From contig OY848920.1 in NCBI GenBank assembly GCA_963693285.1, forward strand, positions 3,795,135-3,859,134: a DNA stretch of 64,000 nucleotides, read 5' to 3'. The position numbers were made by a program, and so were the translations under genes. Source of the DNA: Xestospongia muta (Eukaryota > Porifera > Demospongiae > Haplosclerida > Petrosiidae). Position 1 is the stretch's first letter; every line of letters starts with the position of its first letter. The notes under the pieces were generated by a model. The model saw nothing but the letters and a program-made list of their open reading frames with translations. It ran no database searches and was not told the origin of the DNA. Below are positions 20,103 to 53,628 of this stretch, one piece after another.

Positions 20103-20156
20103 TTAAAGTAATATAATCAGCTTCTTAAACAATATGTCAAGAACGTTAGAAAGTTC
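20103..20156 (-). CDS. Gene B exon 11 (last, tentative)
   Basis: Tentative final exon: acceptor ATAGTAGAAG, phase 0, encoding ELSNVLDILFKKLIILL, then TAA. It fits the phase of exon 10 and closes the protein within 210 bp. The acceptor lacks a strong pyrimidine tract. Reading through the exon 10 donor instead would add VSYIVHISMYICT and stop at 20320. Confidence 0.35.
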   Translation of the reverse strand, partial: ELSNVLDILFKKLIILL

Positions 20157-20361
20157 CTTCTACTATGACATTGAGGTATGTATCTGTGGAATTAATAGAT
20201 AATAATTATGTACAGAACCACAGAATAAATATAATGGGAATATTACATCTAAAATCAACTGAGTTGTGATTAGCATCAAAATAGATCAAAGACAGCTATT
20301 CTTAGCTAAGGGTTTCACTCTATGTACATATATACATTGATATATGGACAATATAACTTAC

Positions 20362-20657
20362 TTTAGTTTTTAAATAATCTTCATAAGCATCTGCTACATA
20401 ATTCTGTCTAATAGCTCTTAAAGCAACTAATAAACTCCTATTTGTTGCACTTCTTCCTTTCTCCATAATCCATAACCGATACATTCTAGTACAGTCGTGA
20501 CATCCATCTAGATCCACACTGTCCAGTTCTAATTTCACACCCAACTGATACCATTCTGCTGTTCTAGCATGTGAAATTAATTCATCATGTGTAGGTTGTT
20601 CATCCAAGAGATGATCTGGTATAGTAGATACACGTACACCTTCTTCAACTGTATTAT
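20362..20657 (-). CDS. Gene B exon 10: C-terminal Death domain
   Basis: A 296-nt exon (phase 1 to 0) between TCATATTAG and AAA|GTAAGTT. It encodes NTVEEGVRVSTIPDHLLDEQ, then the Death-fold core ELISHARTAEWYQLGVKLEL, DSVDLDGCHDCTRMYRLWIM, SLLVALRAIRQNYVADAYED. The pattern W-x-x-L-G-x-x-L, a charged middle and 'LL-x-AL-x-x-I' is that of a classic Death domain, more diverged from the N-terminal pair than these are from each other. A C-terminal Death domain after a protease domain would let the product recruit, or be recruited by, other Death-domain proteins. Confidence 0.7.
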
Positions 20658-22882
20658 CTAATATGAATTAGAAAAATATATAATTTAATATTGATATAAC
20701 AAAATGACTTTTTGTTAAGCAATATAATAAGTGTAATCATGTTATTGTTTAAAACAGCCAAACATTAAACACAATATTCATAGTTGATTGTGTCTATGAA
20801 CATGAAGTCCATACATCAATGATAAATTAATACCATACCTTTGACCTTACATTATAAATATTAGAGCCTAATAGTATAAATTTTGTATTGGAGTATGCGT
20901 GTCCTGTGTCTTATAAACAGTCACTACATTCTTATATTTGAAAATGTCAACAAATGTAAAAAGGAAACCATTAAAAATTATAAAACCAGACTAAAATTTT
21001 ACAGAAAGTTCACTTCAGATATATCAGAGTCATGATGTAATGAAAAACACTTAGGATTTGTAGGTTGTGATTTATACACAGGAATATTTCTTGGAGCTTA
21101 GAAAGCCAATAAGTAACTTTAAAGGAAATGGATAATTGAAAATTACTTGTCAAACTAATAAGATTATTTGAAGACAAAATATATACTCTGAACTGTAAAT
21201 TAAATCTATTTGATAGCAGGTATCAACTTAATACTGTAAAAGACTTTCTACAAATGATCATACAATGTAGAGAGATGCACTATACCATCAAAAATATTTC
21301 GAATAAAATAAAAGATAATAAGTTTTATTTATCCATTACCATTCTGTTATAATAAAATATTGTTGTTTAATTCAGTAGTTTTAACATAATATAATGATTG
21401 TTCGATCCCTAGCATAAAAGACTATATATAGTGTGTAATATTATTTCAATGAGTCTGTAATTTGTCAATACTTTAAGTATCTATATCACTTGGTTAATGT
21501 AACATCATCATATTTGGTGTAACACCTAAAACTAAATCAGAAGTCCATTATTACAAAAATGCAAAAAGGAAAGAAACGTGAAGTTCAGATATAACATTTG
21601 AACATACTAGTTTAGACATACAAACAGTTACTGAGAATTTGGTTACAGTAATTACAATATTATACAACAAACCTAAAATTTCAACAATATATTATCATCA
21701 GTGCTATAAATGAAAGACCTATTTACAACAAATGTACATGTATATATAAGTAGGTATACAATGTAAGAAGAAAGTATAAACAAATTAGGGGTTCAAGAAT
21801 ATTAACTATGAAGTCAAACATAGATAGATGAGAGTTTGCTGGGCTAACTTGTCAATAGTTCCCAATTGTTTAGGAACAATTATCAATTTATTATCATGGC
21901 TATACAGTTCGCTTTATTGGAGCTAAGAAAGCCAATAAGTAACTACAAAAAGAATATTGGTAACTGATAAATTAGTTATCAAACTAATTGGATTACTTGA
22001 AGTCAAAACATATACTATGAAGTGTAAAGTAAGTGATTGATTTATTTTATTATCAACCTCTTTAATATCAGCTGTCAACTTTATAATGTAAAGGAGTGTA
22101 CAATCATGAGCATACAAAGTGCATACATGTACTATGTCATCAAAATAATTCATATAGAAGAAAAGCCAATAATAAGTTTGATTTATTTATTACTATTTCT
22201 ATTATGAAGCCCTATCTCCAAGCCTTATCCTAAAATTTAAGTTGAATTTAAGGCTCTCTGCAATGATTATGGCTTGTGTTTGAGAATTGTGTGAATTATG
22301 TGTATACTCAGGATAACTCCACATGTTAAACTAATTTCTTACATATAATATTATATTTTGTGATATTCATATCACAATAACTAAATAGTCTCCATAGTGT
22401 GTGAGACAACTACTACTTACTGAAGTGAAATTATACAATAATGAACTTGTTATTGTAAGCCATGTTGCTCAAAAACAATAATAGACTGCCTGTGCCTGTT
22501 AGTTGTCTGTACCTATGCCTGCACATTGTAAGTGTCAACAGGACCTATATTGACCCAAATCACACAAGTATTCCTTTTTGGGCAATTTTTTGTGAATGAC
22601 TATATAAACAAATGTTTAATTATATTCATAGCATAGTTAATCACATTCATAATTGGTAAGCTTTGATCCTAAGCAGGTTTTTCTAATGCATTAGAATTGG
22701 ATTCACATACTCTTCCTCCTTAGTGAGGATAAGGACTCCTGTTACACTTATTTATGAGTTGAAACATGCTATCATTTAGGCAATCCTAAAGTTATGTTTT
22801 TGGGTATGATAATAATTGATTTGAAGCAATATATGAAATGGCACATTTATTACTATCTTAAGTTGGTTTATTAATTGCTGAC
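20658..22882 (-). repeat. Gene B intron 9 with tandem copies 2 and 3 of a 230-290-bp repeat
   Basis: Two diverged copies lie at 21096-21345 and 21918-22205. Both open with 'aagccaataagtaac' and contain 'ttacttgaag'/'ttatttgaag' and 'atcaactt', then 'accatcaaaa'/'gtcatcaaaa'. A third copy lies at 9905-10135. No coding potential. The remainder is AT-rich with nothing recognised. Confidence 0.6.
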
Positions 22883-22954
22883 TTGAAGTAGTAATAGTAC
22901 TAGATTTCCTTTTTGATGATGGCATTTCCTCCATCTGGGTGGGTCGTTTATGAC
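22883..22954 (-). CDS. Gene B exon 9: basic Ser/Thr linker
   Basis: A 72-nt exon, phase 1 at both ends, with acceptor AATATAG and donor CAA|GTCAGC (weak). It encodes HKRPTQMEEMPSSKRKSSTI and TTS, a short basic, Ser/Thr-rich linker. A broken paralogue lies at 10243-10307. The exact 3' border is uncertain because the donor is poor. Confidence 0.5.
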
Positions 22955-23251
22955 CTATATTAAAGGACAACATTGTAAACTAAATTCCTGCTAGATAAAA
23001 TTAAACTAGTTAATATTAAAATATAAAATAAATCAATACTATGATTTGCGTTAAAGGTTAAATGAAAGCTGTACTTGTAATAATAGAGTTATACACATTG
23101 TTAACATGTTATACAATAAGCAAGTTATTCAATACAGTGTACATTGTAATTGATTATAACAATTGTCTACCAATGTCTCTCTCTTGCCTACCTAACGTGA
23201 CAATTAAATTAGTAAAGTATCTTTATTACATGTCACTAAATCAGACTATAC

Positions 23252-23476
23252 CTTTTTGTTCGTCTGGTATACTTTTAGGTAATGAAGGTATCTTTTTGTG
23301 AGGCATTCCTTTTTTCTTATAAGGTCTCCCACTAGCTGGTTCTTTACCAAATTTACTTGAAGTGTCATATGACTCTACATCACTGTCAGATGATAATGTA
23401 TGACATTCTTGCTTCCTAGGAAGTATATCTTCATCAGACTCTGATATATTTAATCTCGGTCTCTTCTGTTTCTCTC
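23252..23476 (-). CDS. Gene B exon 8: Lys/Ser-rich linker, NLS-like
   Basis: A 225-nt exon (75 codons, phase 1 in and out) between TTATTACAG and AAAG|GTATAG. It reads EKQKRPRLNISESDEDILPR, LSSDSDVESYDTSSKFGKEP and GRPYKKKGMPHKKIPSLPKS. The acidic serine clusters fit casein-kinase-2-type phosphorylation and the Lys-rich end could act as a nuclear signal; both are inferences from composition. It sits between the caspase-like and C-terminal Death domains as a flexible tether. Confidence 0.65.
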
Positions 23477-23599
23477 CTGTAATAAATTGAAGAAAACTTA
23501 GTATTTACAGTAGTTAGAAGTCATTATAACATCAGTAATTTTTCCTCTTGCACAATATAGATTAGCTTGTATGCATGACAATCTTTGTAAAGCTGATTT

Positions 23600-23985
23600 T
23601 TTCTAGTGACAATGGTAAGAACCTATATCCATGAATACTTAATATTAAGGGATATATATTCACTGAGCTCCAAAATTAACCTTTGATTGGACTGCTCCAG
23701 AATGTATTAAGAAATACTTAGGTATGCACTGAGCTCATGTGACTCATCATTGCAGGATGTATTAAGTATTTGGTGATACCAGTGTTTAGGGATACACATG
23801 CATTGGCTCATGAATTGATCATTCCAGGATATACCAGAGATAGTATGAATACCTAGCACTAAGAAATGTGTGTATCTCTTGAATTGTGGTCACAACAAAA
23901 TGTGCCAGTGATGTTTGGTGTTGAGGAACATACACATAATAGTATTATGAGTATGTTCCTCAATACCAAGTATTACTGATTAGAC
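23600..23985. repeat. Irregular minisatellite-like repeat in gene B intron 7
   Basis: Repeating words 'tactta(a/g)(t/g)attaaggga', 'ccaggatgtatta', 'gagctcatg' and 'ttgaggaacatacac' at roughly 70-100-bp spacing. A longer homologous block lies at 29880-30370, in intron 4 of the same gene. Too diverged to define a clean unit. Confidence 0.5.
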
Positions 23986-24086
23986 TTCTAAATTTGGTGG
24001 CCATAAATTATAAATATTTTAAATTTCAAATTCAGTCCTTTAGTACTAGCTAGAATATTTTAAACTCATTCTGACTGGTAACATAC

Positions 24087-24845
24087 CTGAAATGAGGTAG
24101 TCATCTCCACAATTTATTAATTGAAAAGGGGCTTGGACTTTGTATGGTGTCATATCTATGACATCTTTTCTTGTCTTGTTAAGTATTTCATTGACTGTCA
24201 TAGTTTTAGCGTATTCCTTTATATTTTCACACAATTTAATTGTCCAAGCACCTCCCTTTGAAAAATCACCCTGAGCAACCCCTCTGTAATATGTAGCATG
24301 TGCAACTATAGTGTAATCATTAGGTGGTTGGTAACAAGGTAGATATGGATTTAAAGGAGGTGGAGCTGTTGTAGGTAATGTTTCAGTTTTATGTTCGTTT
24401 AAACAACAGTCGAAGAGAAACAAACGTTTACGATCTTCAAGATGACAATTTGGATTGATAGGTTGAAATTGATTAATGACTTCATCAATAGAAAAATTCT
24501 CATGTTTGTCATTGTCACATGGTAAAACAAAGTAACCCCTTTTATCTATACTTCCACCATGACCTGCATAATAAAACACCAACCATTTCAATTTAATTGA
24601 GAAATTAAAATATTCTGATACAATCTTCACTGCTTTCTTCATTATTGTAGGTGTCGGATTTTTAATAACCCAGGTGGCAAAGTTGAGACCATTGAAAGTT
24701 GTTTTGATGTTTTTAATATCTAAATCAGTTCCCTGTGGTACCATCTTATTCACCACACCAAATATGATGGCAAGACCACTTTTAGGATTAGGACCACTCT
24801 GTGCATTTGCCATTATCTCTACAGTAAACTCTTTGTACATTTCAT
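24087..24845 (-). CDS. Gene B exon 7: caspase-like (peptidase C14) domain
   Basis: A 759-nt exon (253 codons, phase 1 at both ends), with acceptor CTTTCAG and donor TTTCAG|GTATGT. It covers a complete caspase/metacaspase-type fold. The p20 start SGLAIIFGVVNKMVPQGTDL is followed by the 'D-I-x-x-I-x-x-x-F-x-x-L-x-F' helix, then the His motif LVFYYAGHGGSIDKRGYFVL and the Cys motif RLFLFDCCLNEH. The p10-like segment has GGAWTIKLCENI. Both the catalytic His (Y-A-G-H-G) and Cys (D-C-C) are present, so activity is plausible. The site reads DCC rather than the caspase QACxG, closer to metacaspase/paracaspase-like relatives, so Asp specificity cannot be assumed. Joined to Roc-COR upstream and a Death domain downstream. 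Confidence 0.8.
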
Positions 24846-25149
24846 CTGAAAGAAGTAATAAATAGATAATCATACTTCAGAGTCAATAATATTATGAATT
24901 ACTCAAGTCGCTGTCTTCAATCCAAAAACCATACAGTTATATAATGGAACATTTACCAAAATGATTATTGGTCAGTGTTATACATGCATTACATTTGTAT
25001 TGTAATATTTGGTAGGTATATCAAAAGCTTATGGAATGTTATATTGTATGCAGTTAGTATATGAACCAAAACAATTTAGGACTAGTCACCACACACTTGT
25101 GGTAGGCAGTTGAAACTAGCAATTGTCACTATAATATTTATTAGCTTAC

Positions 25150-25179
25150 CATTATGTGGAATAGCCTGTTTTGATGAAT
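25150..25179 (-). CDS. Gene B exon 6: 30-nt microexon
   Basis: A 30-nt exon, phase 1 at both ends, between TTTTGTTCAG and ATG|GTAAGC. It encodes SSKQAIPHN. It has a strong pyrimidine-rich acceptor and consensus donor, and the right phase to join the Roc-COR and caspase exons with or without it. It may be alternatively used. Confidence 0.55.
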
Positions 25180-25552
25180 CTGAACAAAAAAAATTGAATT
25201 ATATCATTATGGCCATTGTATTAAGAAGAAACTTATATAATATTTTGCTTTTGATGCAGGAGCTAATTCAAAACTATTTACTTTACACTAAATAAAGTCT
25301 ATTCACATTTACTTCAAGCTTGTAAATATCTTTACTTCTTAATTATATTTTAATGTTGTTTCTTTTGGCCATACTTTACTTGTAAATTAAAAAAAAGTCA
25401 CACATTTTGAATGTAGACTTGTACTACATTAACTGCAAGTAGTATTGGAAAAATTATAACACAACACCTTATTTAGCAAAAAAGTCGACGTTATGGTAAG
25501 TCAAATTAACGCGAGCAGTCTTTTAGTATTTATCTTCCTAACTAAAACTTAC
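25180..25552 (-). other. Gene B intron 5
   Basis: A short AT-rich intron with nothing recognised. Confidence 0.4.
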
Positions 25553-27637
25553 CTATAAACCAAGGTAACTGATGTGACCTATCAGTGTCAGTTGTTTTAG
25601 AGCTATCTTGACAGGTAAGTGTTAATTTATCATCACTTAAACGACAAAAATGTTCTGATGATTTATTGGGGCAATCTGGTATTCTACAATAAAAGTAATC
25701 TTCAAGACTGTATACATTAACTGTATATTGGAAATTGTCTATGATCTCAATAATTGCTGCATGGACAGTATTACGTAAAGAATAACATTCTTTACTAGAG
25801 CCAGAATAGTAGATTGCCAACCATGATTTTCCATCAATTAAAAGAACATCACCATGATTAGCTTGTAAAGTAATAATATTACGATAACGAGGTGTGGTAG
25901 GGGTAGGACGTTTAAGTTTAAAGGTCATCTGATCTTTACAATTTAGAAGGTTGGTAACTAATGCAGGAAAAATTCCATGAGGAAAAGGCTTCATATCCCA
26001 TGACAAAATTAGAGGCTCAACATGTTGCTTAAAAGGAGATGGTATAGACTTATAGTCGATAGAAGATGTAGTAGGAAGAACAGTTGGTAGAAAGTACTTT
26101 CCTTCTTCAGGTAGAGGAGCCATAATAAACAACATTGTCATTAAAATGAGAAAATTGTCTGCTGAAAAGTCAGAAAAAAATTTATCAAATAAAGGAAGAG
26201 TTAAGAGCTGTTTACTGAAAGATCCTTTTTCTTTGAGTTCTGCAAAATCATTCTCATCGATAAAAATATTATGATCTCTTAAAAGATCAAATGTTTCAGC
26301 AAATGAGATGCTGATCAAAATAGACAGAATATCAAATAGTATTTGTGGATGAAGAAACACTACATTAGACAAGATTTTAGGAAAGTACAGGAAGATAGTC
26401 ATATCATGGTAATACATTAATGCTTTTTCAACTTCTTCTGGTTCCATATATAAGGTCTTTCCAATATCCAAGCATATAGATTTGGTTACAACTAAGACAT
26501 TAAATTGACAAAACTTCTGGTCTAATTCTAGCTGAAACAAGAACCATCGAATCGGAATTTTAACTTTTAAGGAAAATCTACATATTTGACGACGTATCTC
26601 ATCAGCTAATTTTATTTCATTACCACTTCTGGCAACAGCATTCACAGGAAAAATTATTTGATTTCCTGTGGCACGATATTTAATTACTTGATTGTGTAGT
26701 TTTAAATCTTTCAACATTGACATAAGAATAGAATTTTTGTCTACTAGTAACTCACCAGAGAAACCAGACTTCAGTAGTTTATCATAAAATGTCCCTAGTA
26801 CTATGCAATGTGGCTCTTTAAAATTCCCTTTATCATTTTCACTTCCGTTCTCAATTGAACGTTCTAAAATTTGAGTGAATTGAGGACAATTAAATGATGT
26901 TAGGGACCGAAATGAAGCTTGGAGAAGCTCTAAATTTGTTATCTGATGATTAGCTGGCTCTGCAAGTTGATCTCCTTTAATACAATAGAAGAACTTAGCT
27001 TTTTCATGAAGTTGTTCATCTAGCTTATGTGTAAGAATATTGACAGAGTGATATCGTAACAAAATCGGAGCAATATCTAGAAAAGCAGCCTGACCTCCAG
27101 TATCAACACCATATATCCAATGAGTTTTATAAAGCTCTTTTGAGCTCTGCACATGAGGTAAAAGGTTAATAATTTCTTGAGATACATCGGACTTTATTAC
27201 ATCTTCTGTTGTGGTGGTTTGTTCAGACTTATTTGTGTCTATGTCTTGTACTTGCAGATGTGACTCAGTTGTTACTGGCTGTTCAATTGACTGTTGACTT
27301 CCTAACTCTGAAGATTGTTGACTTTCTAACTCTGGAGATATCTCCATGTTGTTTTTAATATTTCCAGCAATTATTTCCTTCACTTTGTCTGGATCCACCT
27401 TCATCCATAACAAATTATGATTGTCTCCTGTGATGGCAGTTACGACATGTGCTGGACGTGGGGCAACTACATTAGTACTGTTATGTACATTGTCATTATC
27501 ACTTGGTTCATCATTATATAGTAGCTTTACAAAAGATGATTTACCAGTTCCAGGTGCACCAGATATTAAAAACTTGGAGAATTCAGCAGTTACAAAACCT
27601 TTCTTCATAGCTTTGTCCAGTAACACATCATTGCCAT
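25553..27637 (-). CDS. Gene B exon 5: Roc-COR GTPase
   Basis: A single 2,085-nt open exon (695 codons), with acceptor CTTTGCTAG and donor ATAG|GTAAGT, phase 1 both ends. The Roc GTPase part has a P-loop GAPGTGKSS near exon residue 26, a G3 motif DTGGQAAFLD near 178 and a G4-like VLGTFYDKL near 280. Between P-loop and G3 is a Gln/Ser/Thr/Glu-rich insert of over 100 residues, unusual for a small GTPase. From about residue 365 the IPIRWFLFQLEL opening and following helices fit a COR dimerisation domain. In-frame ATG at 27663-27665 exists, but the TTTGCTAG acceptor, the phase and the paralogous linker exon argue that this is internal. Roco proteins (LRRK2, DAPK1, MASL1) use Roc-COR as a dimer-controlled switch; no kinase or LRR is seen here. 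Confidence 0.85.
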
Positions 27638-30600
27638 CTAGCAAAGAAAAAGTCAGTTTTTCCATACAATACTAAAACCTAATTAATATTATATATTTTG
27701 GACAACATGTTGTATCTATTAGACAACTCTAATCTATAAGTAACAAATATGAGGGAGGATCATTATGTCCAAGATATTAGTATGACACAAGGTGAAGGGA
27801 AGTTTGTATAAACAGACCCCATCTCTTTTGTATTCTACATATATATATGTGTAGCTTATTACATGATGTAATATATATATATATATAATATATATCCCCT
27901 TGAACAAAAGGACAGTCTAGTACATTGGCTTTAAATTCATGGTCCTAAAGTCATTAGCATGAGATTTCAAGACCATCTAATCATGTACCTATGGTCACAA
28001 GAGAAGTAGCAGATTATAAAAGAAGTCATTAATAAAAAATATTGATAATTCTGCCACTAAAACTACAATCCACGGTGATACAAGTATAATTTTAACTCTG
28101 TGTCAAATTTAATAAGATTACACTGAAGTGATGCATGATCAACTAGAGCTTATACCATCATTATAACTATTCTCCTATTATTAACACATGAGATATCATT
28201 TCCAATAACGAAATACATGAACAAGCTTGCTACATTAGCCATTACTAAGAGGCCTCAAAATGTAGCAATCATATGTTTTTCCAAAAAGATATGTGTTCAT
28301 CAATATCATGTTGATGACACTATTTAAAGCAAATAAATCAGACCACAATTTTCACTCAGAGGTGTGAACATATAGGGTTAAAACTAAGTAGTAGTCATTT
28401 TCTAATAGTATTCCTTTCTATCCCTTCTAGTTCTTTAAATGACATTGACATTGATGGTATCCTCAAATAAAAACACAGCAATGACCACTTGAAACACACT
28501 GATAAGTTTCTTCTCTAAATATAGGATTTCGTTTTACGTGGGCAGTGGCCATGAAATTCTGATGTTTAGGTTACACAACTGATTTAATCATTATAAGGAT
28601 TGTAAAACTAGTCCTTAATCTGGTGAAGCAGCTATATACAAGAAGCACATTATTGTGGTTTTGACAGCTTATGACTCTCATTAAACATAAGCCTAAGTTA
28701 TAAAATATTGACATTTTTGAGGTTAAAAAATTTATCCTGCCTGTAATATTATAACATAGTTAATAACAGTGTCCTGTCATCTTACGATGATAAATTACTA
28801 AGTGGATGTAATGTCATGATAAGTAGCCACAAACACATTGCTATGAATGTTAGATTATAATAAAAACTTGTTACTTTGAGAAGTCTTAATCTGTTAGTTT
28901 GAAGCTAAAGATTAGAACAAATGAAATAAACCTTTTTTTTCTATGAACTATTATAAGACTGTCTGACATGCTATGTGTGACAAGTGAATTTAGCAAAATG
29001 GTCCTAAAAAGCAACCTTTCACTCAAGAATTTGCTTCTAATCCTATTTCTTTACACAATGATATGCGTGTATTATAATACTGAAATAACCCAGAAACTAT
29101 ACTCTGTTCAAGTTGACTACTGACTCAGTGATATACCTCAGGCTAAGGATAAGCAAGAGAGAAAAGGTTTTTCTATTCAGTATAATCTTACAAATCCACT
29201 TAAAACATAAAAATAGGTGTGCTAGATGTTTAGGAACAAAATCCTATATATCAGGAATGGCATTCTTCACATACCACCATGACATGATTATTAACGAATG
29301 TACACACAAATGTTCACTAACTGAAATAAAAATGTGGAGAAACAGTAGATGTTTTTTATAGCACATAACACTTTGTGTACATGTACAATAGATAATAGAG
29401 TAAAGGAAATGGATATGACTTGTAGGTGTGGTCACAATAGGACATAAATTTATATGGGCTACAAATTAGACACATGTACAGTTGACTGGAGTCATAATTT
29501 CAGTACAATTACAAACAACATGTTTGCAGTAGTAAGGTATGTAATGTTTCAACTTTCATTGTTATATATAAAGTTCACAAATGCTTATACAATAGTGTTC
29601 ATATTACTTGATTCATATTAATCACTTTTTATTAAATCAGTGGGTGTAATGTTGTGATAATTGTTGTGAAAATAAGCCACTAGTATATTGATTAATAATT
29701 TATATTATCACAGTTAAAGTACCGTAAATCGGTATAAGGCTTGTGGTTAGGAAGAGAAATCACTTAAACAACTTGGAAACCTTCACATCCTTGAAATATT
29801 GACAAGTGAGTAAATAAATATTTGTTGAGAATGAATGTTCCTGGTAGAGTTACTCATATACTAAACTTTCTCTAACCACAAAGGCAAGAATCCATATCCA
29901 GGAATACTTAGTATTATGGGATAAATATGCACTAGGCTCTAAAAAGTATTCAGGAATACTTGGTATTAAGCAACAAACATGAATGCAATGAGCTACTAAG
30001 AACCATCGCAGGATGTACTAATTATTAAGAATATAGTACTAAGGGATATATACGTACGTGGCTCTAAAATAAACCCTGAATGAACCATCCTGGGATGTAC
30101 TAAGTACCAAAAGATACTCAGTATTAAGTGATACATAGGTATCTATTGGGTTCCTGACAATCACTGTCCCAGGATGTACCAAGTATCCAGCGATTCCAAT
30201 GTTTAGGTATATGTATATACTGGCCTCATGAATGGACTATTCCAAGATATACTACAGTTAGTATGTATACTTAGTACTAAGGAATGTATATCTCTTGAGT
30301 TGGGATTATATCAAGTTGTAACAGTGATACTTGGTATTGAGGAACATACATGTACTGAACACAGCCTGTATCAATTTTAGGAAACTCAGTGTTGACATTG
30401 GTCCAGTCGTAGAGACTACTTAGTATCCTGGGATATATATATATAGGATTGTTAGTTAATGCAAAGGACAACATGTGGTAGTACTGAACATCACTCGTTT
30501 TGAAACTAAAGATCAGAACAAGTGAGTGAAAACTGTTTGTTTAAAAGTAATTGTAAGACTACCTGGTATGCCAAGTTAATTAAGTAATATACAACCTCTC

Positions 30601-30786
30601 ACATGAACATTTGTTTCTAATATAATACCAATAGTCTTATAGGACCTTTGTTATTACCCACATTGTTTACTATGATATAAAACTATCAGTTAGACCTGGG
30701 AAGAAGCTATAATTATAATACTACAGTAAATGTCCAGTGTAACAGTTAACATAATGTATTGACATATTATATAGAAATTAAATTAC
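27638..30786 (-). other. Gene B intron 4
   Basis: About 3.1 kb, AT-rich, with a (TA)n run at 27870-27892 and the minisatellite-like block at 29880-30370. Short open frames (29113-29361, 29244-29435, 30277-30474) lack family resemblance. No exon supported. Confidence 0.45.
29880..30370. repeat. Irregular minisatellite-like repeat, gene B intron 4
   Basis: At least five diverged units built from 'caggatgtactaa', 'atacttagtattaaggga' and 'actaggctc', about 70-100 bp each. Homologous to 23600-23985. The two ends of both blocks match ('atatccaggaatactta' and 'ttgaggaacataca'), so the block as a whole was copied between introns. Confidence 0.55.
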
Positions 30787-30843
30787 CTGAATCAGATATT
30801 TCAGTGTCAGGATTAAGATTAGATCGAAGTCTCCTAATTACAC
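30787..30843 (-). CDS. Gene B exon 4: 19-codon linker exon
   Basis: 57 nt, phase 1 in and out, acceptor CATGTAG and donor TCAG|GTAATT. It encodes VIRRLRSNLNPDTEISDS after a split Arg codon. Same length, phase, flanks and ending as the gene 1 exon at 354-410. It connects the second Death domain to Roc-COR. Confidence 0.65.
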
Positions 30844-32005
30844 CTACATGAACAAACAAATTATAGATAATATCAATAATAATGATGAATTAATTAATAA
30901 TGACCTATTGTTTGGATATACTAACTACAAATTATTACAGTTATTAGTTATGTTGTTGTCAAAATTATAATTATTAATAAACTATAATTAACTGAACTGT
31001 CAGTTATTTCACTTAATCCTAACATTACATATTTGGACCACATGTACTGTATGTATTACATAACTCTGATTTATCAGTAACTTATACCATGATATGTCTT
31101 AATTACCCAATCAGATTGCTCTATTTCAGATCAATAAATAACTTCCACACTTCCCAGAAAGGTATACAAGTTCTTTTACAATCCTTTTTGAAGCTATGAT
31201 TTCCAAGGTTTTAACAATCAATTTAAATTACTGCATTATGTTTTAAATACAAGCTGTATGTGTACCTCTGACTTTGTCAAAAATAATTATTGTTTATAAT
31301 TACATTCATAACATAGTTAAGCTTTCAATAACGAACATGAGCTTTAGAATAAGATTTGTACACTCGTCCTCCTTAGTGAAACTAAGGACTCCTGCTATTA
31401 GTTCATTGGCTAAATGTAACAGCCATTTTAAACACAAGTTCTACATCTACCTCTAACTTTGTCAAAAATAATTATTGTTTCAATAAACATCAAATTTTAC
31501 CTCTAATTATTCATCATGAAAATTACTACACACAATCTAATTTGATAAATGGTTAGAAGCTTTATGGTTATTAATGATGGATGTGTCTAGAATATTATGG
31601 GGAATGCTATGATCATCATAAGTCTAGATTCAGTGACATTTACACAGTGTACAGCTTCTGTACGTGATAGTATAGTTATCTATAGTATCTTTAACTACAA
31701 TAGTAACTGTGAACTAAACAGATAAGAATTACTATCAAGCCAATATGTGGGTTCCATGTGTGTATATGTTATGAGACATATTGTAAGATAGACACATCCT
31801 AAAAACACAATAAAGTTCATTCTAAATACCAGTACTACATACTACATGTATGTTGTGATGTATAGAAGTAGTTAATAAAAAACTATATCAAAGTCTTTGA
31901 CAACAGAATAATAACATTTTGTAAGTCATAAAGTTTGTACTATACAGTTTATTGACAGTGACAGTATTAATAAAACAACCTCATTACTTAATAATAATAA
32001 CTTAC
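30844..32005 (-). other. Gene B intron 3
   Basis: AT-rich, no coding segment recognised. The stretch 31290-31470 contains an imperfect direct repeat of 'gtcaaaaataattattgttt', with no further structure. Confidence 0.4.
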
Positions 32006-32299
32006 GTAATTGTAGAATTTGACGTATCTCATCAGCTATCACCTTCTTGTTAATAACAGGACTCTCCACAGCAGTAATCACTGTTTCCCAGTTAACAAAG
32101 GATGATTTTATATCTTTCCAGATGTCGATGACTTTCTCAAGTTTGCTTTCATTGTTGTCCTCACTATGTTTTATCTCATCCAAAACATTGCGATGTACTT
32201 GTAATAATAATCCAATATCGTACCATTTGTCACTGATATAAAATAATCGATGAAATACTTCATCTTCATTAGGAGTCTCCTTTAATATACTGGTAATAC
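32006..32299 (-). CDS. Gene B exon 3: second Death domain
   Basis: 294 nt (98 codons), phase 1 at both ends, acceptor TTATTTCAG and donor TTAC|GTAAGT. It encodes ITSILKETPNEDEVFHRLFY, WYDIGLLLQVHRNVLDEIKH, KLEKVIDIWKDIKSSFVNWE and TVITAVESPVINKKVIADEI. It is very similar in protein and flanking intron to the exon at 39351-39644, pointing to a recent exon duplication within the gene. Intact frame. Confidence 0.75.
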
Positions 32300-33557
32300 C
32301 TGAAATAACAAGAAATTATTATAACAAACTGTCATATTATAAATTAAATAATGTCTTAAAATTATCATTTTAAATGTATGTGGTATTGATTAAGTGTTGA
32401 CAAATAAAAACTTCGATCAATAGACATGGAATTTAATACAGAAAATTTGATTTATATTTATACAATTAACTAGGACATCTACATGTACTACTATTCTTCT
32501 ACTGTTAATAACATTTACTGTTTATCATTCTATGACTTCACCCACATTGATCTAAAAAATTTACTACTTATAATATAATGGTTTGTCATTGGGCTATAAA
32601 TAGAATATGTGGTAAATGTTTCAACCAATACTGGATATCAGCACTTTAGGGTGTGGCATGTTTAGGTTAATTATAAATTAGTTTTACATGTGTACATGTT
32701 AACCAGTAAAGTAGTACTTTGTGTGTGTACTGTTGATATATACTAATATTAATATTGTGGGACAAGTAAAGATCACAATATTACTAACATCATCTTATAA
32801 TTAACAGATAGTGTAAGAGTAGGTCCCAGTAATTCTATATCAACATAGATTATTAATTACATGGAACTAATAATGATTATTTATTTTTAAGTCATTGTAA
32901 TGTGAGCATTAAGTGACTACAATAAATAACATATTTGTAGGAGTTTCTACTTTGATAAGAAAAGTGGATAATTTTGTTAAGGTACATGTATGTGTAAATT
33001 TTAAGCTCACTTTAAAATTATCTTGTAAGTTTGTCATAATAATATAGAAAGGATATATATTCTTATTACTACATGTATATAGTATTTAAAGTCATTTTGA
33101 TCATTGTAACTTAAAAAACAAAGTATAATACTAACACTCTTTTTCATAGTAAACAGAGCTAATGTATCATAGTTTGTCATTATAATAACAGAAAAGTATC
33201 CATGTTTTACTATTTTCTATAGTATATAGAGACAATGATATAACAGTAACTACATCACAAAGACAAAGTAGAGTTCTAAAACTTTGCGTCATACCCAGAC
33301 ATTCTTCGTTCAAGGGAAGGATGAGTTGTAATCTATCAAGTTAGACCCTCCTCATTGCTAATACACAGTTAAAGTAAAGTAAAGGCCACAATAAATTAAC
33401 TTCAACTAAAAAATCAGATTCCACTACTCATATTCTGGCTAGTGTGGGTGGTAGGAAGTAGAATATAAATGTTGTTCACTCTCTATTATTCAAGTGAACA
33501 AATCTATTTTATTCTTCTTTTCAAACTAAGACTGTTTTATGACATTATAAGTCAGTA
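32300..33557 (-). other. Gene B intron 2, part between Death exon and LTR element
   Basis: The first 170 bp (to about 32480) match the DNA beside the other Death exon at 39645-39840, including 'aattaactaggacatctacatgtactactattctt'-type words. The rest is AT-rich with nothing recognised. Confidence 0.5.
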
Positions 33558-33562
33558 ACTAT

Positions 33563-33732
33563 TGTCAATTAGAGTGCATCTCTCTTAACCAAAGATTATC
33601 ATGACAAGAAAACAATGAACATGAGGTCCCCCTTTTCTCACGTGACCTTGTATAGTTACATTTATATAATACATTAATACATAAGCGCAACATTAATACT
33701 ATTACAGTTCGTAAACTGATACTAATACTACA
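33563..33732 (-). repeat. 3' LTR
   Basis: 170 bp. On the minus strand it starts TGTAGTATTAG and ends CTAATTGACA. It differs from its partner at 37475-37644 at a limited number of positions, mostly transitions, consistent with a moderately old insertion. Confidence 0.9.
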
Positions 33733-33742
33733 TCTCCCCCTT

Positions 33743-34996
33743 TTAAGTCCAAGTGGGATCATATCGTACAGGAGAGCGCGAGGCCCTTCCACTCCTCCAG
33801 CTTGATATAGTCCTAGTACACTCCAATGGTTCCTGGTCATTTGCTGTTTCTGTTTGACTCTCCAAATCTTGATGACGTCCTGTGTTTCTATCAACGGTTG
33901 GATATATTTCGATCTCTACTGGATCTTCCTCTTGTAGGTTTGTTGTGGGTTCCGGTATTGGCCTTAGATTGTATCTGTTCCTGTTGTATGTTACTCCATT
34001 CTGTGATTGAATCATATATGACCTTTCTCCTGTCCTTTTCTTAATGAATCCTTCTTCCTTTCTATCCACCATCCAAACAGGATCATTCTGACATAAGTTA
34101 TTCAGTGGTCTTGCTCCGTGTCTCCTATCAAAGTTTTTATTTTGTTTTTGCTTGTATTGCTTATCTCGATTGGAGATAATGAAGTGTTGGACAACTCTCG
34201 GTTGAAGTTGATTAATGGTCAGGGGCAGTGTTGTGCGTAACCGCCTACTCATTAGTAGTTCTGCTGGACTATGCCCAATACAAGGAAGTGGTGTACTGCA
34301 ATATGTTAGCAATGCCAGGTAAGGGTCCTTGGAGGTTTTAAGTACTTCTTTGATTGTCTTGACTGCTCTCTCTTCTTCTCCATTCCCTTGTGGATGATAT
34401 GGGCTGGAGGTGTGATGTATGAAGTCATACTTGTTACCAAACTCCTTAAACTGATATGACACGAACTGTGGTCCATTATCAGATATTACACATTCTGGTA
34501 TGGCATGACAAGCAAATATTGATTTAATGTGATGTATGACTTCTCCTGCTGATTGGTTGTTGAGTTTGGCAATTTCTATATAATGAGATATAATAATCTA
34601 TTATTATCAGATACATCCTACCTTCCCACTGAAATACGTCCATGCCCACTTGATTCCATGGTTAACTTGGTAACACTGTTGATTTCAGGGGTTCCATTCT
34701 CTGAACTAGTTCTTTGCAGCAGAGTGGACACTTTTGAATAAGATGTTCTATCTGACTTGATAAGTTTAGCCACCACACCCGACTATCTTGCTCGTAGTCT
34801 GCATTTAATGATTCCTTGGTGACCTCATGTAGTCGATGTAAAATATCTTGTTGAGTTCTGCTGGGATGACTATTCTATTACCTCTCATTAACAATCCATC
34901 TTTGACAGAAAGTTCTGATGACACTGTTATGTATGGTTTGAGCATACTTGGACATTTTGTACTTGTTGGCCATCCATTCCTACAGAACTTTGCCAA
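33743..34996 (-). pseudogene. Gypsy integrase (pol C-terminal part), broken
   Basis: Begins with the region before the integrase core (VKDGLLMRGNRIVIPAELNK), then a zinc-binding H2C2-like piece with C-P-L-C-C (near 34715). The catalytic core shows the first Asp in VGMDVF (near 34640), the second in VISDNGPQF (near 34475) and the Glu in NGEEERAVK (near 34375). The C-terminal 120 residues, with PVWMVDRKEEGFIKKRTGER, form the DNA-binding tail. At least one stop and one shift lie between 34462 and 34805. It ends close to the polypurine tract, as expected for the last pol domain. Confidence 0.75.
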
Positions 34997-35530
34997 TTTC
35001 TACAATTACATCCTCCTCTTGTTTTTGTTGAATTTGAACCAGTCTGTGTTCAGTAGGTGGGAGTGTACTTATTACTTGCTCTACCCACAATGGCAAGCTC
35101 TCCAAACTCTTCGTGCTCAGGATCAGGATCAAGGGCTTATGGTCTGTAACCACGTGAAAATGAAGTCCTATGAGATAGTCGGAAAGGCGTTCACACCCCC
35201 AGGTAAGAGCCAGAGCCTCCTTTTCTATCTGAGCATACCATTGTTCTGTGAGGGACAATGCTCTTGAGATATAGATGACAGGTTGGTATTCTCCTCCTGG
35301 TTGTTGCTGAGTTATCACCACTCCTAACCCAAATGATGACGCATCAGCTGACAGTTCTGTAGGACGGTTTGGATCATATAATGCTAGAACAGGAGTGGTG
35401 CAAACAGATGTCTTAACATCCTGGAATGCCTTTGATTGTTGGTGGTCCCATTACCACTGGTTGCGTTTGTTAAGCAGCTCTCTGAGTGGTTGAGTCCTAT
35501 CAGCTAACTTATCTGTAAATTTACTAAGCT
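34980..35530 (-). pseudogene. Gypsy RNase H domain, broken
   Basis: Minus-strand reading YQPVIYISRALSLTEQWYAQ, IEKEALALTWGCERLSDYLI and the VVTDHKPLI motif, which is the standard Gypsy RNase H signature (Glu and Asp catalytic residues visible). The upstream part, 35325-35530, reads on in other frames. Part of the same damaged pol. Confidence 0.75.
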
Positions 35531-35554
35531 GATTCACGATTCCGAGAAAACGTC

Positions 35555-36300
35555 TTAGTTCTGATATGTTTGTTGGTTGTTTCGGACTGCCAGTACTTTC
35601 TCTGGGTCTGGAGACGCTCCTGAACTGTCTATCACTTGTCCTAGGAATTTAATCTGTCTCTGAGAAAATATACGTTTGTCTTTATTTAGTGTCAGTCCAG
35701 CCTTCCTCAATTTCTGAAGCACGTTCCGAAGATTTTGATCATGTTCTTCTTGAGACTTCCCATATATTAAAATGTCATCTGCTTGGCATACCACTCCTCC
35801 TAGACCACTCAGTATTGTTGACAATGTGACATTGGAAATGCTCAGGTGCTGAGGTGATGCCAAAGGGAAGGCAATTGAAGTGAAACCTTCCAAAGGGTGT
35901 GATAAATGTGATCAATAGTGACGATTTAGTGTCTAATCGGATTTGCCAAACCCCAAATTTGCATCTAGTTTCGTGAAGACTCAAGCTCCTCCCAACTGTT
36001 CAAGTTTTTGTTCCATTGATGGCAATAAGTGTTGTTCTCTTTTCACATTCTCATTCAGTTTGGTCATGTCCATGCAAATGCACATGCTACCATTTTTTTA
36101 GGGACTACTACCATCCACCAGTTTGTGGGCTCGATGACAGGTGATATGACTCCCATTTCCTCCATTCTCAGCAATTCCTGCTTCACTTTGGGCAATAACG
36201 ATATCGCCACTCGTCGAGGTACCAACAATGTATAAGGATGTGCACCTTCTCTTAATTGTGAAACATGTTCTCCTTCCAATTTCCCCAAACCACAAAACAG
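35555..36300 (-). pseudogene. Gypsy reverse transcriptase, broken
   Basis: Fragments in three frames. PRRVAISLLPKVKQELLRME and MGVISPVIEPTNWWMVVVPK form the palm entry. GRFHFNCLPFGITSAPEHFQ forms the finger/palm core. VCQADDILIYG at about 35780 carries the active-site Asp pair (x-x-DD), followed by the LRKAGLTLNKDKRIFSQRQI thumb. Frame changes near 36065, 35890 and 35560. No intact polymerase. Confidence 0.8.
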
Positions 36301-36747
36301 GGTTGGAAACTCTTTCACTGTGTCTATAGTCCCATTCTCAACAACATCTAGTCGTTGGACTAACTTAAGTCTTATAATAGCTTGGCGCCCTAACAAAGGT
36401 GTCTGAAGCGATTTCACAACATAAATTGTCTCCTCTGTAATTCTGTCTTTATATTGCAGTGTTACTAATAAACAGCCAGCCACAGGTAAAACAGCTGAAT
36501 TAGGCCCACCAGGTTGTTTGTCTGGAGGTTGTGACTCAATTATATTTCCGAATTCATGAAGATCAGCTGACAATATCACAGTCACATCTGCTCCTGTGTC
36601 AAGTTTAAATACCATTGGTCTGCCATTAAGAGACACTTGTGTTCTCCATGGCTGCTCATTTTGAGTACCTTCTTGGACCACTCCCAGAAAGGCTGCATCT
36701 ACCTCTGCTGTTTCCTTCGTCTGTATTTCTTTTATCTGTGATGTCAA
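36301..36747 (-). pseudogene. Gypsy aspartic protease region
   Basis: Contains the active-site loop KLDTGADVTVIL with D-T-G at 36592-36600 and a downstream flap-like region (TPLLGRQAIIRL). The frame runs on into RT. Retropepsins are dimers that mature the Gag-Pol polyprotein; here the surrounding gag and RT are broken. Confidence 0.75.
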
Positions 36748-36753
36748 TGTCGG

Positions 36754-37463
36754 ACATACTGCCTCATAATGGCCTGTACGGTGACACCTATGGCAAGTTG
36801 CATACAGAGCTGAGCACTTCTGTTGTTCCTGGTAATCTTTTTTTCCTACTTTCTACACAGTATTCTGTTAGTTTTCTGTCCGATGATTTCTGTGACACTA
36901 TCTTGATACGTGTTTCCTCTTGAAAATCTTTTCTCAGTATCTTTTGTTGTTGCTTTATGGCTTCTCTTTCTCTAGCTGCTTCTGTAGCTTTTGATAGTGT
37001 TATCTCTGAATCCATTTGTAGCTTTTCTGACAGTGCTGGATCATTCAGACCTACAACAATCCTATCCTGAATCATCTCTTCTCTCGATACTCTTCTCTCA
37101 GTGCTCTGCTAACCCGTGCAATGCCGTAATAAAGCTGTCGACCATCTCCTCTTCTCTCTCGTATCTCCTATTGAATTTCGCACGTTCAAATATAATGTTT
37201 CGGCATTTTATGAAGTAGGACTCAAATTTTCCCTTGACCATCTTGTATACCTTCTTCTCCTCCTCTGTCATCCCAAAAGAAGCTAAAATGTCATCTGCTT
37301 CGTCTCCCATTGAGTACACAAATGTGTTTACTTTGTTCTCTTCTGACTTGCTAGCCAGGCCAGATGCTTGCCTGAGTCTTTCGAAATGGCGGATGCATTT
37401 AGGCCAGTTTTCTGGATAATGTATATCAAAACTTTCAGGTGCAGTAACTTAAAAAGTAGCCAT
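36754..37463 (-). pseudogene. Gypsy gag with CCHC zinc knuckle, broken
   Basis: A start ATG lies right after the primer site (37461-37463), but codon 5 is TAA (M-A-T-F-stop). The capsid-like part follows, with ADDILASFGMTEEEKKVYKM and REEEMVDSFITALHGLAEH, then a frame change near 37100 and MIQDRIVVGLNDPALSEKLQ. A zinc knuckle C-x2-C-x4-H-x4-C (CHRCHRTGHYEAVC) is at 36754-36795. Typical Gypsy Gag layout; inactive. Confidence 0.75.
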
Positions 37464-37474
37464 CGCTGCCACCA

Positions 37475-37644
37475 TGTACGATTAGAATGGATCTCTCTTA
37501 ACCAAAGATTATCATGACAAGAAAACAACGAACACGAGGTCCACTTTTTCTCAAGTGACCTCGTATAGTTACATTTATATAATACATAAATGCATAAACA
37601 CAACATTAATATTATTACAGTTCGTAAACCAATACTAATACTCA
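37475..37644 (-). repeat. 5' LTR
   Basis: 170 bp. On the minus strand it starts TGAGTATTAG and ends CTAATCGTACA. Flanked by the target duplication at 37645-37649. Confidence 0.9.
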
Positions 37645-37649
37645 ACTAT

Positions 37650-39350
37650 GGTGTTTTAAATTATGCAAATCTGCAAACATAACATAAATGTATTGTAACG
37701 GAAAATAGTGTGCTCCAGGAGAGGGTGTGGCTTCTTCATTTCCGTTTATCATAGTTACATGTACTTCAAACTCTGATAAGCCCTTCACTAGACATTTCTA
37801 ACACATCAGTTAAGAGGAGGGTATAGCTGGATAGACTAGATGGACTGGTAACTATTACTTGTACATGTACCAATTAATTGGAATCAATGATAAAGTCATT
37901 CATGAGCTAATCCTTTAACAATGAATTAGTCATAATTAAAATAAAATAATAAATCAATGGTATACATTAATTTCCTTTATATTATAGCTGACTATGGAAA
38001 GAGTTGGATTCTGTCTTCTAAAGAAGATAACATCAAGTTTGCTATGTAACATACAACAGAATGGTAAGTCTTAAAAATATCAGATGAAATCAGTCACTGT
38101 TCATATCATATGAGTCATCAAATCAAGTGTATCAGTGCACATAAGGTTAAAAGACATGTAATACACTGTATTGTAATGAAAAAACAAACTAGAAAAACTA
38201 GAAAAGTTTACATATGATTGAATCTACTATATGGTCAATGAAGATGTGCTTTCAGTCTAACTTTAACTAGAACAGTAACTGTGAGTTAAACATATAAGGA
38301 TTACTATCAAGTCAATGTGTGTTTGTGTTATGTTCTATGTGTGTACATGTTACATGTTATGAGATAATCTTGTCAGTCAGACACATCCAAAATACAATAC
38401 AAGTTCATTCTAAATACAAGTACTACATACTATATGTATGTTAAAACTCATTGACACAGTACTGTAATTATTCTAAAATTTTGTCCCTCTAATTTCAAGT
38501 TTGTAAACTTTCTATAATTTATCTTTTTTAATATTCCTTTGTAAAAATAAAGCTCCGTGTGTTTCTAATTTAATCATTTATCTCCTTATTTGGCAAGGTG
38601 TTACAGTGGAGAAGACGGTTATTCAGACATTTGAGAAAGCAAAGAAGACACCATTTTACTGTAATGATTATCATTGTTATTAATCTTAATCTTAATTTTA
38701 ATACCAAATAGTAGATCAGTTTGAAATATTCTCATGACACATGTTCTATTATTCTTCTATTTATTATGATGACTACTGTGTATCTATCATGACTATTCAT
38801 TTTTTCTATTCCTCCTTAAAATATGAAACATACATCAAGACTCCATTTAACATTGTAAAAGTGATAGCGTCTGTACCATATTGGACAAATTGGCTCTTAG
38901 AACTTAGTCTGTTGTCTCTTTGTTTTTAATTAGTTTGTCCATTGTTATTTTGGTACAGTGTATTGACAGTGGCATTAGGTGAGTTCATATTCGATGCAAT
39001 TCAATGAAGCTTACATCTATAAACTGACTTAATTCCATTCAAAAAGGATTGTCAATGACCTTCAAAGTTTGGCATTTTAGGGAAAGGTCAGAGCAAAACA
39101 TGACTGCCTACAAACTGATCACAATTATTCATAACATGTACAAAACATTCCTGTGTTCAAATTATAACTGATACAATCAACATCAAACAACTTTGAAGTG
39201 AATTGAGACTAATTTGATTTTTCAATCACATTCAACTGATGTACATTGTGTGTGAATAATGTTGATACTAACTAAATTGAATACAGTTTACAGTAACAGT
39301 CTGAACACCACTATTAATAACATTAATAACTAAAAAGTTATTACTCTTAC
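37650..39350 (-). other. Gene B intron 2, upstream part
   Basis: AT-rich. A segment at 37985-38110 resembles 2740-2840 of the gene 1 intron (shared 'acaacaaaatggt/acaacagaatggt' and 'aatcagtca'), a trace of gene duplication. A short coding-like plus-strand piece at 38601-38652 (VTVEKTVIQTFEKAKKTP) has no partner exon. Nothing else supported. Confidence 0.4.
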
Positions 39351-39644
39351 CTGTATTAAGATATTGACGTATTAAGTTAGCTGTCTCCTTGCTGTTAACA
39401 ATAAAACCCTCAATAGCAGTTATCACTGTTTCCCAGTTAACAGAGGATGAATGACTAGTTAGAAAGTTGCCAATGACTGCATTGAGATTTTCCTCATTGC
39501 CATTCCAAGTTCGTTTAAAATCATCCAAAGCATGGCGACTTACTTGTAATGATAATCCAATATCATACCAATTCTCTTTGATACCAAACAATAGATTGAA
39601 TAGTTCATATTTTGTAGGAGTTTCCTTTAATATACTGGTAATAT
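39351..39644 (-). CDS. Gene B exon 2: first Death domain
   Basis: 294 nt (98 codons), phase 1 in and out, acceptor TTATCTCAG and donor ACAG|GTAAGAG. It encodes ITSILKETPTKYELFNLLFG, WYDIGLSLQVSRHALDDFKR, a helix NLNAVIGNFLTSHSSS, VNWETVITAIEGFIVNSKET and ANLIRQYLN. It is the closest relative of exon 3 of the same gene. With exon 1 supplying only Met-Ala-Ala and a split Asp codon, the protein starts almost directly with this domain. Confidence 0.75.
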
Positions 39645-40067
39645 CTGAGATAACAACAAAATAACTATTATAATAAACTGTCATAATTATTATAAATTAA
39701 TTAACGTCTTAAAAATTATCATTTTAAATGTATGTGGTATTGATTAAATGTTGACAAATGAAAACTTCAATAATCAATAAATGGACATGTAATTTAATAC
39801 TGAAACTTGGAATATAAAATTGTAATTATATTTATACAATTAACTAGGACATCTACATGTACTACTATTCTTTTACTGTTAATGACGTTTACTGTTTATC
39901 ATTCAATGACTTCATTCACACTGATCTAACAAATTTGTGATTGGGCTATAATAGAATATGTGCCATATATAAAGTGAACATTAACACATCAGGGTGAGGC
40001 TAATTATTAACTAGTAATACATGTACAGTTATCTTTGTTACTGTCTACAATTATAATGATCATTTAC
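39645..40067 (-). other. Gene B intron 1
   Basis: About 420 bp. Its first 200 bp match the DNA upstream of exon 3. No coding segment. Confidence 0.5.
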
Positions 40068-40077
40068 CTGCTGCCAT
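40068..40077 (-). CDS. Gene B exon 1: start codon exon (MAA)
   Basis: ATGGCAGCAG followed by the donor GTAAATG. The 10 nt give Met-Ala-Ala and leave phase 1, which matches exon 2 exactly. No 2A-type leader is visible within the next 4.9 kb upstream, in contrast to gene 1 and the 56-kb pseudogene. The assignment rests on phase, donor and closeness to exon 2; RNA evidence would be decisive. Confidence 0.5.
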
Positions 40078-53337: not shown

Positions 53338-53628
53338 TTGCAGTGTGCAATGATGAAAGAATTTAGAAACAACATCATTTATGTTGACTCAACACACAAG
53401 ACAACAGGATATGACTTTCAATTGACCACAGTAATGATTGTTGATGAATATGGTGAGGGCTATCCAGTTTCATGGTCCCTAAGTAATAGAGAGGATCAAA
53501 TACTACTGACACATTACTTTGAACACCTTAAGAAAAAGACCAGGACAATATCTCCAAAACGGTTTATGTCTGATGACTTTGACAAGTTCTATAATGCATG
53601 GATATCAGTATTCAATAGACATCCATAA
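53338..53628 (+). pseudogene. MULE transposase catalytic core
   Basis: A 96-codon open stretch with the first catalytic Asp in YVDSTHKT, the conserved DEYGEGYPVSWSLSNRED block and the second Asp in FMSDDFDKFYNAW. TAA follows at 53626, although homologous sequence continues (KILCSRHVDYTWRGALKFIS) in the neighbouring frame. A putative third acidic residue lies after the nested insertion, where V-K-A-F stands in place of the V-E-A/S pattern I expect, suggesting loss of the catalytic Glu. Confidence 0.75.

Follow-up and report, generated by a model that had tools for sequence, protein, structure and literature searches.

A predicted Death-Roc-COR-caspase gene within an expanded Death-Roco family of the sponge Xestospongia muta

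The gene and its exons

The window analysed here is a stretch of 64,000 nucleotides (nt) from the sponge Xestospongia muta (contig OY848920.1, positions 3,795,135 to 3,859,134; assembly GCA_963693285.1). Its minus strand carries a series of exons (Table 1), which would encode two Death-fold repeats, a Roc-COR GTPase module, a caspase-like domain and, depending on where the gene ends, a third Death domain. An earlier note, made from the letters of this DNA, had proposed that ten or eleven exons join here without phase conflict into a protein of about 1,390 residues. For exons 1-8 (40083-23252) this holds: all joins are in phase 1, in the arrangement AG/exon/GT, and the resulting 1,253 codons are free of stops. 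The four junctions that it had singled out (39351/32299, 30787/27637, 25553/25179 and 24087/23476) are those of our model, and the 19-codon linker placed between the Death pair and Roc-COR is exon 4; the frame opens with the ATG at 40083, position 40077 in the earlier note being the second ATG of exon 1. The window has open frames of 709 and 276 codons despite a guanine-plus-cytosine content of 31-33%, and the relatives found in a protein search are 23-90% identical, the window's own entry aside; the frames are therefore not due to chance, and exons 1-8 are real.

Beyond exon 8 the proposal stands in part. Exon 8 can be spliced to exon 10 in compatible phase, and exon 10 to exon 11 in phase 0, giving a chain of 1,358 residues instead of 1,390; a join from exon 9 to exon 10 is not confirmed, the only phase-1 GT sites of exon 9 being weak (TCTA/GTACTA and TCAA/GTCAGC). 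Exon 9 looks like an alternative last exon and not a link to the third Death exon, so that two gene ends are possible, at exon 9 (about 1,312 residues) or at exons 10-11.

Table 1. Exons of the predicted gene and the mobile element within it (window positions).
Feature	Position	Strand	Remarks
Exon 1	40068..40083	-	Start codon, MKMAA, phase-1 donor; paralog L077 98.7% identical over 76 nt including ATG and GTAAAT donor
Exon 2	39351..39644	-	Death-fold repeat 1; without a Pfam Death match when scanned singly; homologue of exon 3 (53-54%)
Exon 3	32006..32299	-	Death-fold repeat 2; Pfam Death 15.6 bits, under the cut-off of 22.6
Exon 4	30787..30843	-	19-codon linker; 86% over 111 nt in paralog L077
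Exon 5	25553..27637	-	Roc-COR GTPase module; G1 GAPGTGKSS, G3 DTGGQ
Exon 6	25150..25179	-	30-nt microexon; splice sites kept in 4/4 copies (window copy counted)
Exon 7	24087..24845	-	Caspase-like C14 domain; catalytic dyad with His in YYAGHGG and Cys in FLFDCC
Exon 8	23252..23476	-	Lys/Ser-rich linker; tandem repeats of exon 8 in L080
Exon 9	22776..22954	-	Probable alternative last exon; 59 codons to stop
Exon 10	20362..20657	-	Death domain 3; Pfam Death 27.1 bits (cut-off 22.6) and position within family
Exon 11	20163..20183	-	Proposed; six codons and stop; from splice-site reading only
Ty3-type LTR (long terminal repeat) retrotransposon	33568..37642	-	In the exon 2-exon 3 intron; not part of the gene

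Domains of the predicted protein

The hidden Markov model searches suggested in the earlier note gave a different answer for each domain. For the Death domains, exon 10 passes the Pfam cut-off; exon 2, scanned as a single exon, gives no Death match. Exon 3 stays under the cut-off; for it there is also an alignment that includes exon 10 (A3), 8 of whose 11 members match Death at an expectation value (E) of 1 or less. The order Death-Death-Roc-COR is repeated in paralog L077, which has the same first exon.

Exon 5 is silent in Pfam for both Roc and COR, with weak P-loop matches only, and the Roc-COR call holds instead through its relatives and its predicted fold. In an alignment of the window copy with 28 relatives (A1), COR-A is matched at E<=0.01 by 12 of the 29 members, none of which is the window copy, and the P-loop and the DTGGQ, which we take to be the G1 and G3 nucleotide motifs, are largely invariant across all 29 rows. 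The AlphaFold2 model of the exon (predicted local distance difference test score, pLDDT, 79.6; predicted template modelling score, pTM, 0.83) was matched by Foldseek to the LRR-Roc-COR (LRR, leucine-rich repeat) of the C. tepidum Roco protein CtRoco (E 3.8e-12) and to LRRK1 (2.6e-11), followed by LRRK2. Searching the PDB with the single exon 5 sequence returned chance matches only, and with the family profile LRRK1 at E 0.004, no stretch passing on its own, a result which is not decisive. By fold and by relatives, exon 5 is thus Roc-COR. An AAA or NACHT ATPase was rejected on the fold; a NACHT match is absent in the Pfam scan of exon 5. Two Roc-COR relatives in the protein search, P0061 and P0075, carry about 200 extra N-terminal residues, for which Pfam names no domain above its cut-off. 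A splice donor at the end of Roc-COR was recognised, with a pattern devised for the purpose, in 14 of the 42 relatives that have its anchor motif, which is missing in 44 of 86; the pattern is too crude to be relied on.

The caspase-like domain of exon 7, with both catalytic residues, was found as previously described: Peptidase_C14 is matched at 72.9 bits (cut-off 21.4), and Foldseek with the AlphaFold2 model (pLDDT 76.3) gives caspases 9, 3 and 6 at E of about 1e-11, the 50 best matches shown being all caspases. The His-Cys dyad is present (H95, C147), C147 aligning with the caspase-3 Cys. Among 20 loci of the same genome (window copy counted; only loci aligned at both catalytic positions, duplicate loci L065, L068 and L070 left out), the catalytic His is kept in 19 and the second Cys of FDCC in 19; L055 has lost both. 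Against six more distant paralogs, the ratio of nonsynonymous to synonymous substitution rates (dN/dS) of the caspase exon is 0.15-0.60. Two caspase-like copies in L078 (3830-3345 and 1673-1188, minus strand) have YYSGYAG, with Tyr for His, and FELCL, with the second Cys kept; they are apparent pseudoproteases.

The family in the sponge genome

The genome searched comprises 158 megabases in 28 contigs, the window contig being C4. Pfam searches gave at least 150 Death, at least 150 COR-A and 106 C14 matches; 64 of 938 candidates were scored as copies of exon 5 (44 on C4, 12 on C6, 7 on C10 and 1 on C1), exon 7 gave 31 matches, and exon 10 (type D3) and exon 3 (type D1/2) at least 150 each. Neighbours were counted among the listed matches, so that a neighbour that appears absent may be unlisted: all 64 Roc-COR copies, 87 of 150 D3 matches (C4, C6, C10 and one on C1), 81 of 150 D1/2 matches (from C4) and 48 caspase places. 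Of the caspase hits on C4, two that were split were merged or counted once, and two short fragments were omitted. C1 caspases were not entered for the single C1 copy.

Around the 44 listed C4 copies the Death exons lie on fixed sides. The exon-3 type is found within 10 kilobases (kb) upstream of 29 copies and downstream of 2, and the exon-10 type within 5 kb downstream of 32 and upstream of 2; the counts within 10 kb for the opposite strand are 1 and 1. The family gene is therefore taken to be Death-Death-Roc-COR-Death. Member L084 has a phase-1 Roc-COR donor, 264 nt and a phase-1 D3 acceptor closely similar to that of exon 10, and L077 has exon 1, the Death pair, the linker exon and Roc-COR arranged as in the window. 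The basic plan is thus Death-Death-linker-Roc-COR-Death on symmetric phase-1 exons, with the caspase as an added cassette.

On C4, a caspase exon lies downstream of Roc-COR in 4 of the 44 listed copies, the window included, always at 710-724 base pairs (bp). The cassette consists of the microexon, the C14 exon and the Lys/Ser linker exons. The Roc-COR of the other three is 86-90% identical to the window copy, and all four retain the splice sites of exons 5, 6 and 7 on both sides of the introns; L077, with its Death pair, is the upstream part of one of the three. L053 is a further caspase copy with broken Roc-COR remnants adjoining.

The two other arrays hold the same pair of domains in reversed order. 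All 12 listed Roc-COR copies of C6 and all 7 of C10 have a caspase hit just upstream on the same strand, at gaps of 82-91 and 187-208 bp. In the three junctions read, out of 19, the caspase frame ends G/GTAAGT and resumes after TTAG or ACAG, across phase-1 introns of 52, 54 and 55 nt. A polyadenylation (poly(A)) site, a promoter and a leader would hardly fit into 52-55 nt, and the pairs are for this reason taken as fused genes; they are the strongest evidence that caspase and Roc-COR work as a single chain in this animal. A 987-codon frame on C10 was rejected as proof of an intronless fusion, its junction having a 54-nt intron that stays open by chance and that measures 55 nt in a sister copy. 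Caspase before Roc-COR on C6 and C10 implies that the fusion arose or was rearranged at least twice, or that an ancestor was permuted. In all, a same-strand caspase hit is found no more than 725 bp away from 23 of the 64 listed copies, in two opposite domain orders.

As to the other contents of the window, the Ty3-type element retains pieces of protease, reverse transcriptase, RNase H and integrase, their frames broken, with LTR segments 91% alike over 162 nt; the corresponding intron of L077 is short, about 0.7 kb. At 3420-327 (minus strand), Death-type exons (3396-3118 and 2128-1835) and an exon-4-like match (417-327) look like the start of the next family gene. The plus strand holds the N-terminal part of an ANF_receptor (class C G protein-coupled receptor-like) protein at 63516-63968 and a MULE-type transposase fragment at 53245-53625. 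An Rfam scan of the window at gathering thresholds gave no match.

One gene or several

Taken together, these data make it quite probable that the window holds one Death-Roco family gene, Death-Death-Roc-COR-caspase-linker, ending at exon 9 or at exons 10/11. Placing Roc-COR and caspase in one gene, as the earlier note did, is well supported by the close paralogs and by the two other arrays; the protein search gave no fused match in its database.

Several observations weigh against this reading. The cassette copies on C4 are recent duplicates, with introns nearly as alike as the exons, and for that reason their common layout is hardly more than one observation; dN/dS among the four (caspase exon, 0.44-1.32; end of Roc-COR, 0.36-1.02) is uninformative. 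No listed caspase partner lies within 5 kb of 40 of the 44 listed C4 Roc-COR copies, and no listed Roc-COR within 5 kb of 11 of the 15 C4 caspase places entered (one of the 11 being L053). None of the 86 hits, one of them the window's own, of a protein search with a Roc-COR/caspase query covers more than 75% of the query, which is roughly what Roc-COR takes up; this negative has little weight, since the entries of the database look like single open frames. Both N-terminal Death calls lie below the Pfam cut-offs, the Roc-COR matches have moderate template modelling scores (mostly 0.42-0.49, scaled to query length), and the single transcript is predicted from genomic DNA. As for the protease, in the sequence alignment neither of the two Arg residues that form the Asp-binding S1 pocket of caspase-3/7 aligns to Arg (one aligns to Pro, the other to a non-Arg residue), which makes an Asp specificity of the caspase type doubtful; exon 7 also has FDCCL in place of what we take to be the usual QACRG-type motif. 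An Asp stands two residues before its catalytic Cys, as is also the case in paracaspases and metacaspases, and a preference for a basic P1 residue may be guessed from it.

A gene that simply stops at exon 9, with exon 10 belonging to another transcript or being a relic, is a contender, if a somewhat doubtful one. Of the six other exon 9 copies read, three have AATAAA after their closing stop codon: L080a and the near-identical L049 and L050. The remaining three do not show this pattern, L080b having a premature in-frame stop but lacking AATAAA, and L080c and L080d being diverged. The window's exon 9 is one base different in length and ends at a different stop. Between exons 8 and 10 there are ten AATAAA against 4.9 in mononucleotide shuffles, a motif that is, on the other hand, frequent in AT-rich DNA. 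No D3 match is found within 10 kb downstream of the L050 copy and no D3 in L078, and the D3 exons listed are 13.4 kb away from Roc-COR for one copy and more than 15 kb away for two, which also counts against a third Death domain. In its favour, a D3-type exon follows within 5 kb in most listed C4 members (the 32 of 44 above), exon 10 has good splice sites, a suitable phase and an acceptor closely similar to that of L084, and a search for exon 1 in front of exon 10 gave short chance matches at most. The third Death domain of the earlier note therefore belongs to the usual family plan, but in the window copy its join is putative, and a competing last exon is present. In L080 (C4:3882200-3886199), tandem exon 8/9 units follow a paralogous caspase exon, the number of Lys/Ser linker repeats varying, and a decayed exon 8/exon 9 pair lies in the window at 10851-10233 (minus strand), about 9.5 kb downstream of exon 10, its exon 8 part with in-frame stops.

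It is unlikely that the main product is Death-Death-Roc-COR, with or without a final Death domain, and that the caspase exons are a separate gene or a rare isoform. The basic family plan lacks a caspase (no caspase within 10 kb downstream of 40 of the 44 listed C4 copies), the caspase paralogs L051 and L052 follow a D3-type Death exon with no listed Roc-COR nearby, and if the intron after exon 5 were retained the frame would stop a few codons beyond the donor. Nonetheless, exon 7 begins with a phase-1 acceptor, the sites of microexon 6 are kept in every cassette copy, and the short introns of the two other arrays join the same two domains. Exon 1 and its flanks, searched between exons 5 and 7, gave at best a 19-nt chance match (E 7.9), and AATAAA occurs not at all between exons 5 and 6 (0.98 expected) and once between exons 6 and 7 (0.47 expected); a promoter/terminator scan of this region used a bacterial consensus and has no bearing on an animal gene.

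That the locus is a decaying pseudogene or an assembly collapse, its fusion unexpressed, is very improbable: the 4-kb retrotransposon that might suggest it is intronic, and the decayed exon 8/9-like copies at 10.2-10.9 kb stand against eight open exons with good splice sites, retained catalytic and P-loop residues and a caspase exon dN/dS below 1 against the six distant paralogs.

Proposed working and known systems

If the single-gene reading is right, the N-terminal Death pair would bind, or be nucleated by, an upstream Death partner, and the nucleotide state of Roc would set the COR-mediated balance of monomer and dimer. Pairing of the chains would bring two caspase domains together, by induced proximity as in initiator caspases, and switch the protease on, which could then cleave itself in the Lys-rich linker and/or cut substrates, the output being cell death or an immune response. 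What the sequence shows is anatomy: exons and phases, predicted folds, catalytic and P-loop residues and a conserved order of genes. A single transcript, GTP (guanosine triphosphate) control, activation by dimerisation, protease activity and an immune role are what we infer for this gene, and the earlier note's "GTP-controlled, dimerising protease" has the same inferential standing.

Some parts of this scheme are present in well-known animal proteins. The system of initiator caspases 8/9 with FADD, PIDD1 and APAF1 shares Death-fold recruitment, a nucleoside triphosphatase platform and proximity activation with the window gene, but divides them among several proteins and uses a STAND ATPase and not Roc-COR. 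MALT1, a paracaspase, has Death and a C14 protease on one chain and an Asp two residues before the Cys, but it has immunoglobulin domains and no GTPase. DAPK1, an animal apoptosis protein, combines Roc-COR with a C-terminal Death domain, but has a kinase and ankyrin repeats, no caspase and no N-terminal Death pair; Pfam scanning of exons 2, 3, 5, 7, 8 and 10 gave no protein kinase, the region upstream of exon 1 lying outside the scan.

The dimer state of Roco proteins, among which DAPK1 ranks, is set by GTP (PMC6337361). Bacterial LRR-AP-GTPase(Roc)-COR conflict proteins have a caspase among at least 24 C-terminal domains (PMC8195603); like the window gene they place a Roc-COR switch and a caspase effector on one chain, in multiple copies and with exchanged effectors, but they have LRR instead of Death domains, and neither flanking Death exons nor exon shuffling is described for them. 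The Amphimedon Death-TRADD-N proteins, with variable C-termini including caspase (PMC8195603), share with the window family a Death-fold N-terminus, a huge expansion in a sponge and a caspase among shuffled effectors; their core, unlike that of the window gene, is TRADD-N, and Roc-COR is not named for them in the available part of that paper. A similar early animal expansion of Roco proteins with Death-fold domains, in this case CARD or Death, is reported for a placozoan; in contrast to the window gene, no caspase domain is named for them in the part of PMC4104024 at hand. In addition, CASc and COR stand among the figure abbreviations for sponge NACHT genes (PMC12909245), brown-algal Roco genes show exon shuffling (PMC11378527), and Roc and COR occur with TIR in a sea slug (PMC9334734).

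An animal caspase-Roco fusion was not found in the literature searched, whose scope did not extend to supplementary tables and subscription papers, which may tabulate one. The earlier note's remark that this architecture was not known is therefore right for animals within that literature, but not beyond them, a bacterial Roc-COR with C-terminal caspase having been published (PMC8195603). The window gene would thus be an animal variant of this kind of protein.

Implications

Relatives of the gene elsewhere in this genome point to all-in-one cell-death sensors having been built in animals as well. If the reading of the window gene is true, the direct linkage of a Roc-COR GTPase with a protease of the caspase type, known from bacteria, was also made in animals, inside a large duplicated Death-domain family; this would provide a single-chain system where GTP state, Death-domain assembly and proteolysis are testable together. 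It would bear on the coupling of Roc-COR switches, such as those of LRRK2 and DAPK1, to their outputs. It would also bear on the history of cell-death receptors in early animals, which may have started as all-in-one proteins and been split later, or have been re-fused in one lineage.

It is conceivable, though slightly on the doubtful side, that the genome holds a whole repertoire of GTP-gated caspase receptors of the all-in-one type, built by exon shuffling and in some cases flanked by Death exons that can be exchanged. If so, the adaptor, switch and protease of an apoptosome would all be on one chain, and the repertoire would be an animal counterpart of the bacterial Roc-COR/caspase conflict systems, diversified like an immune receptor family.

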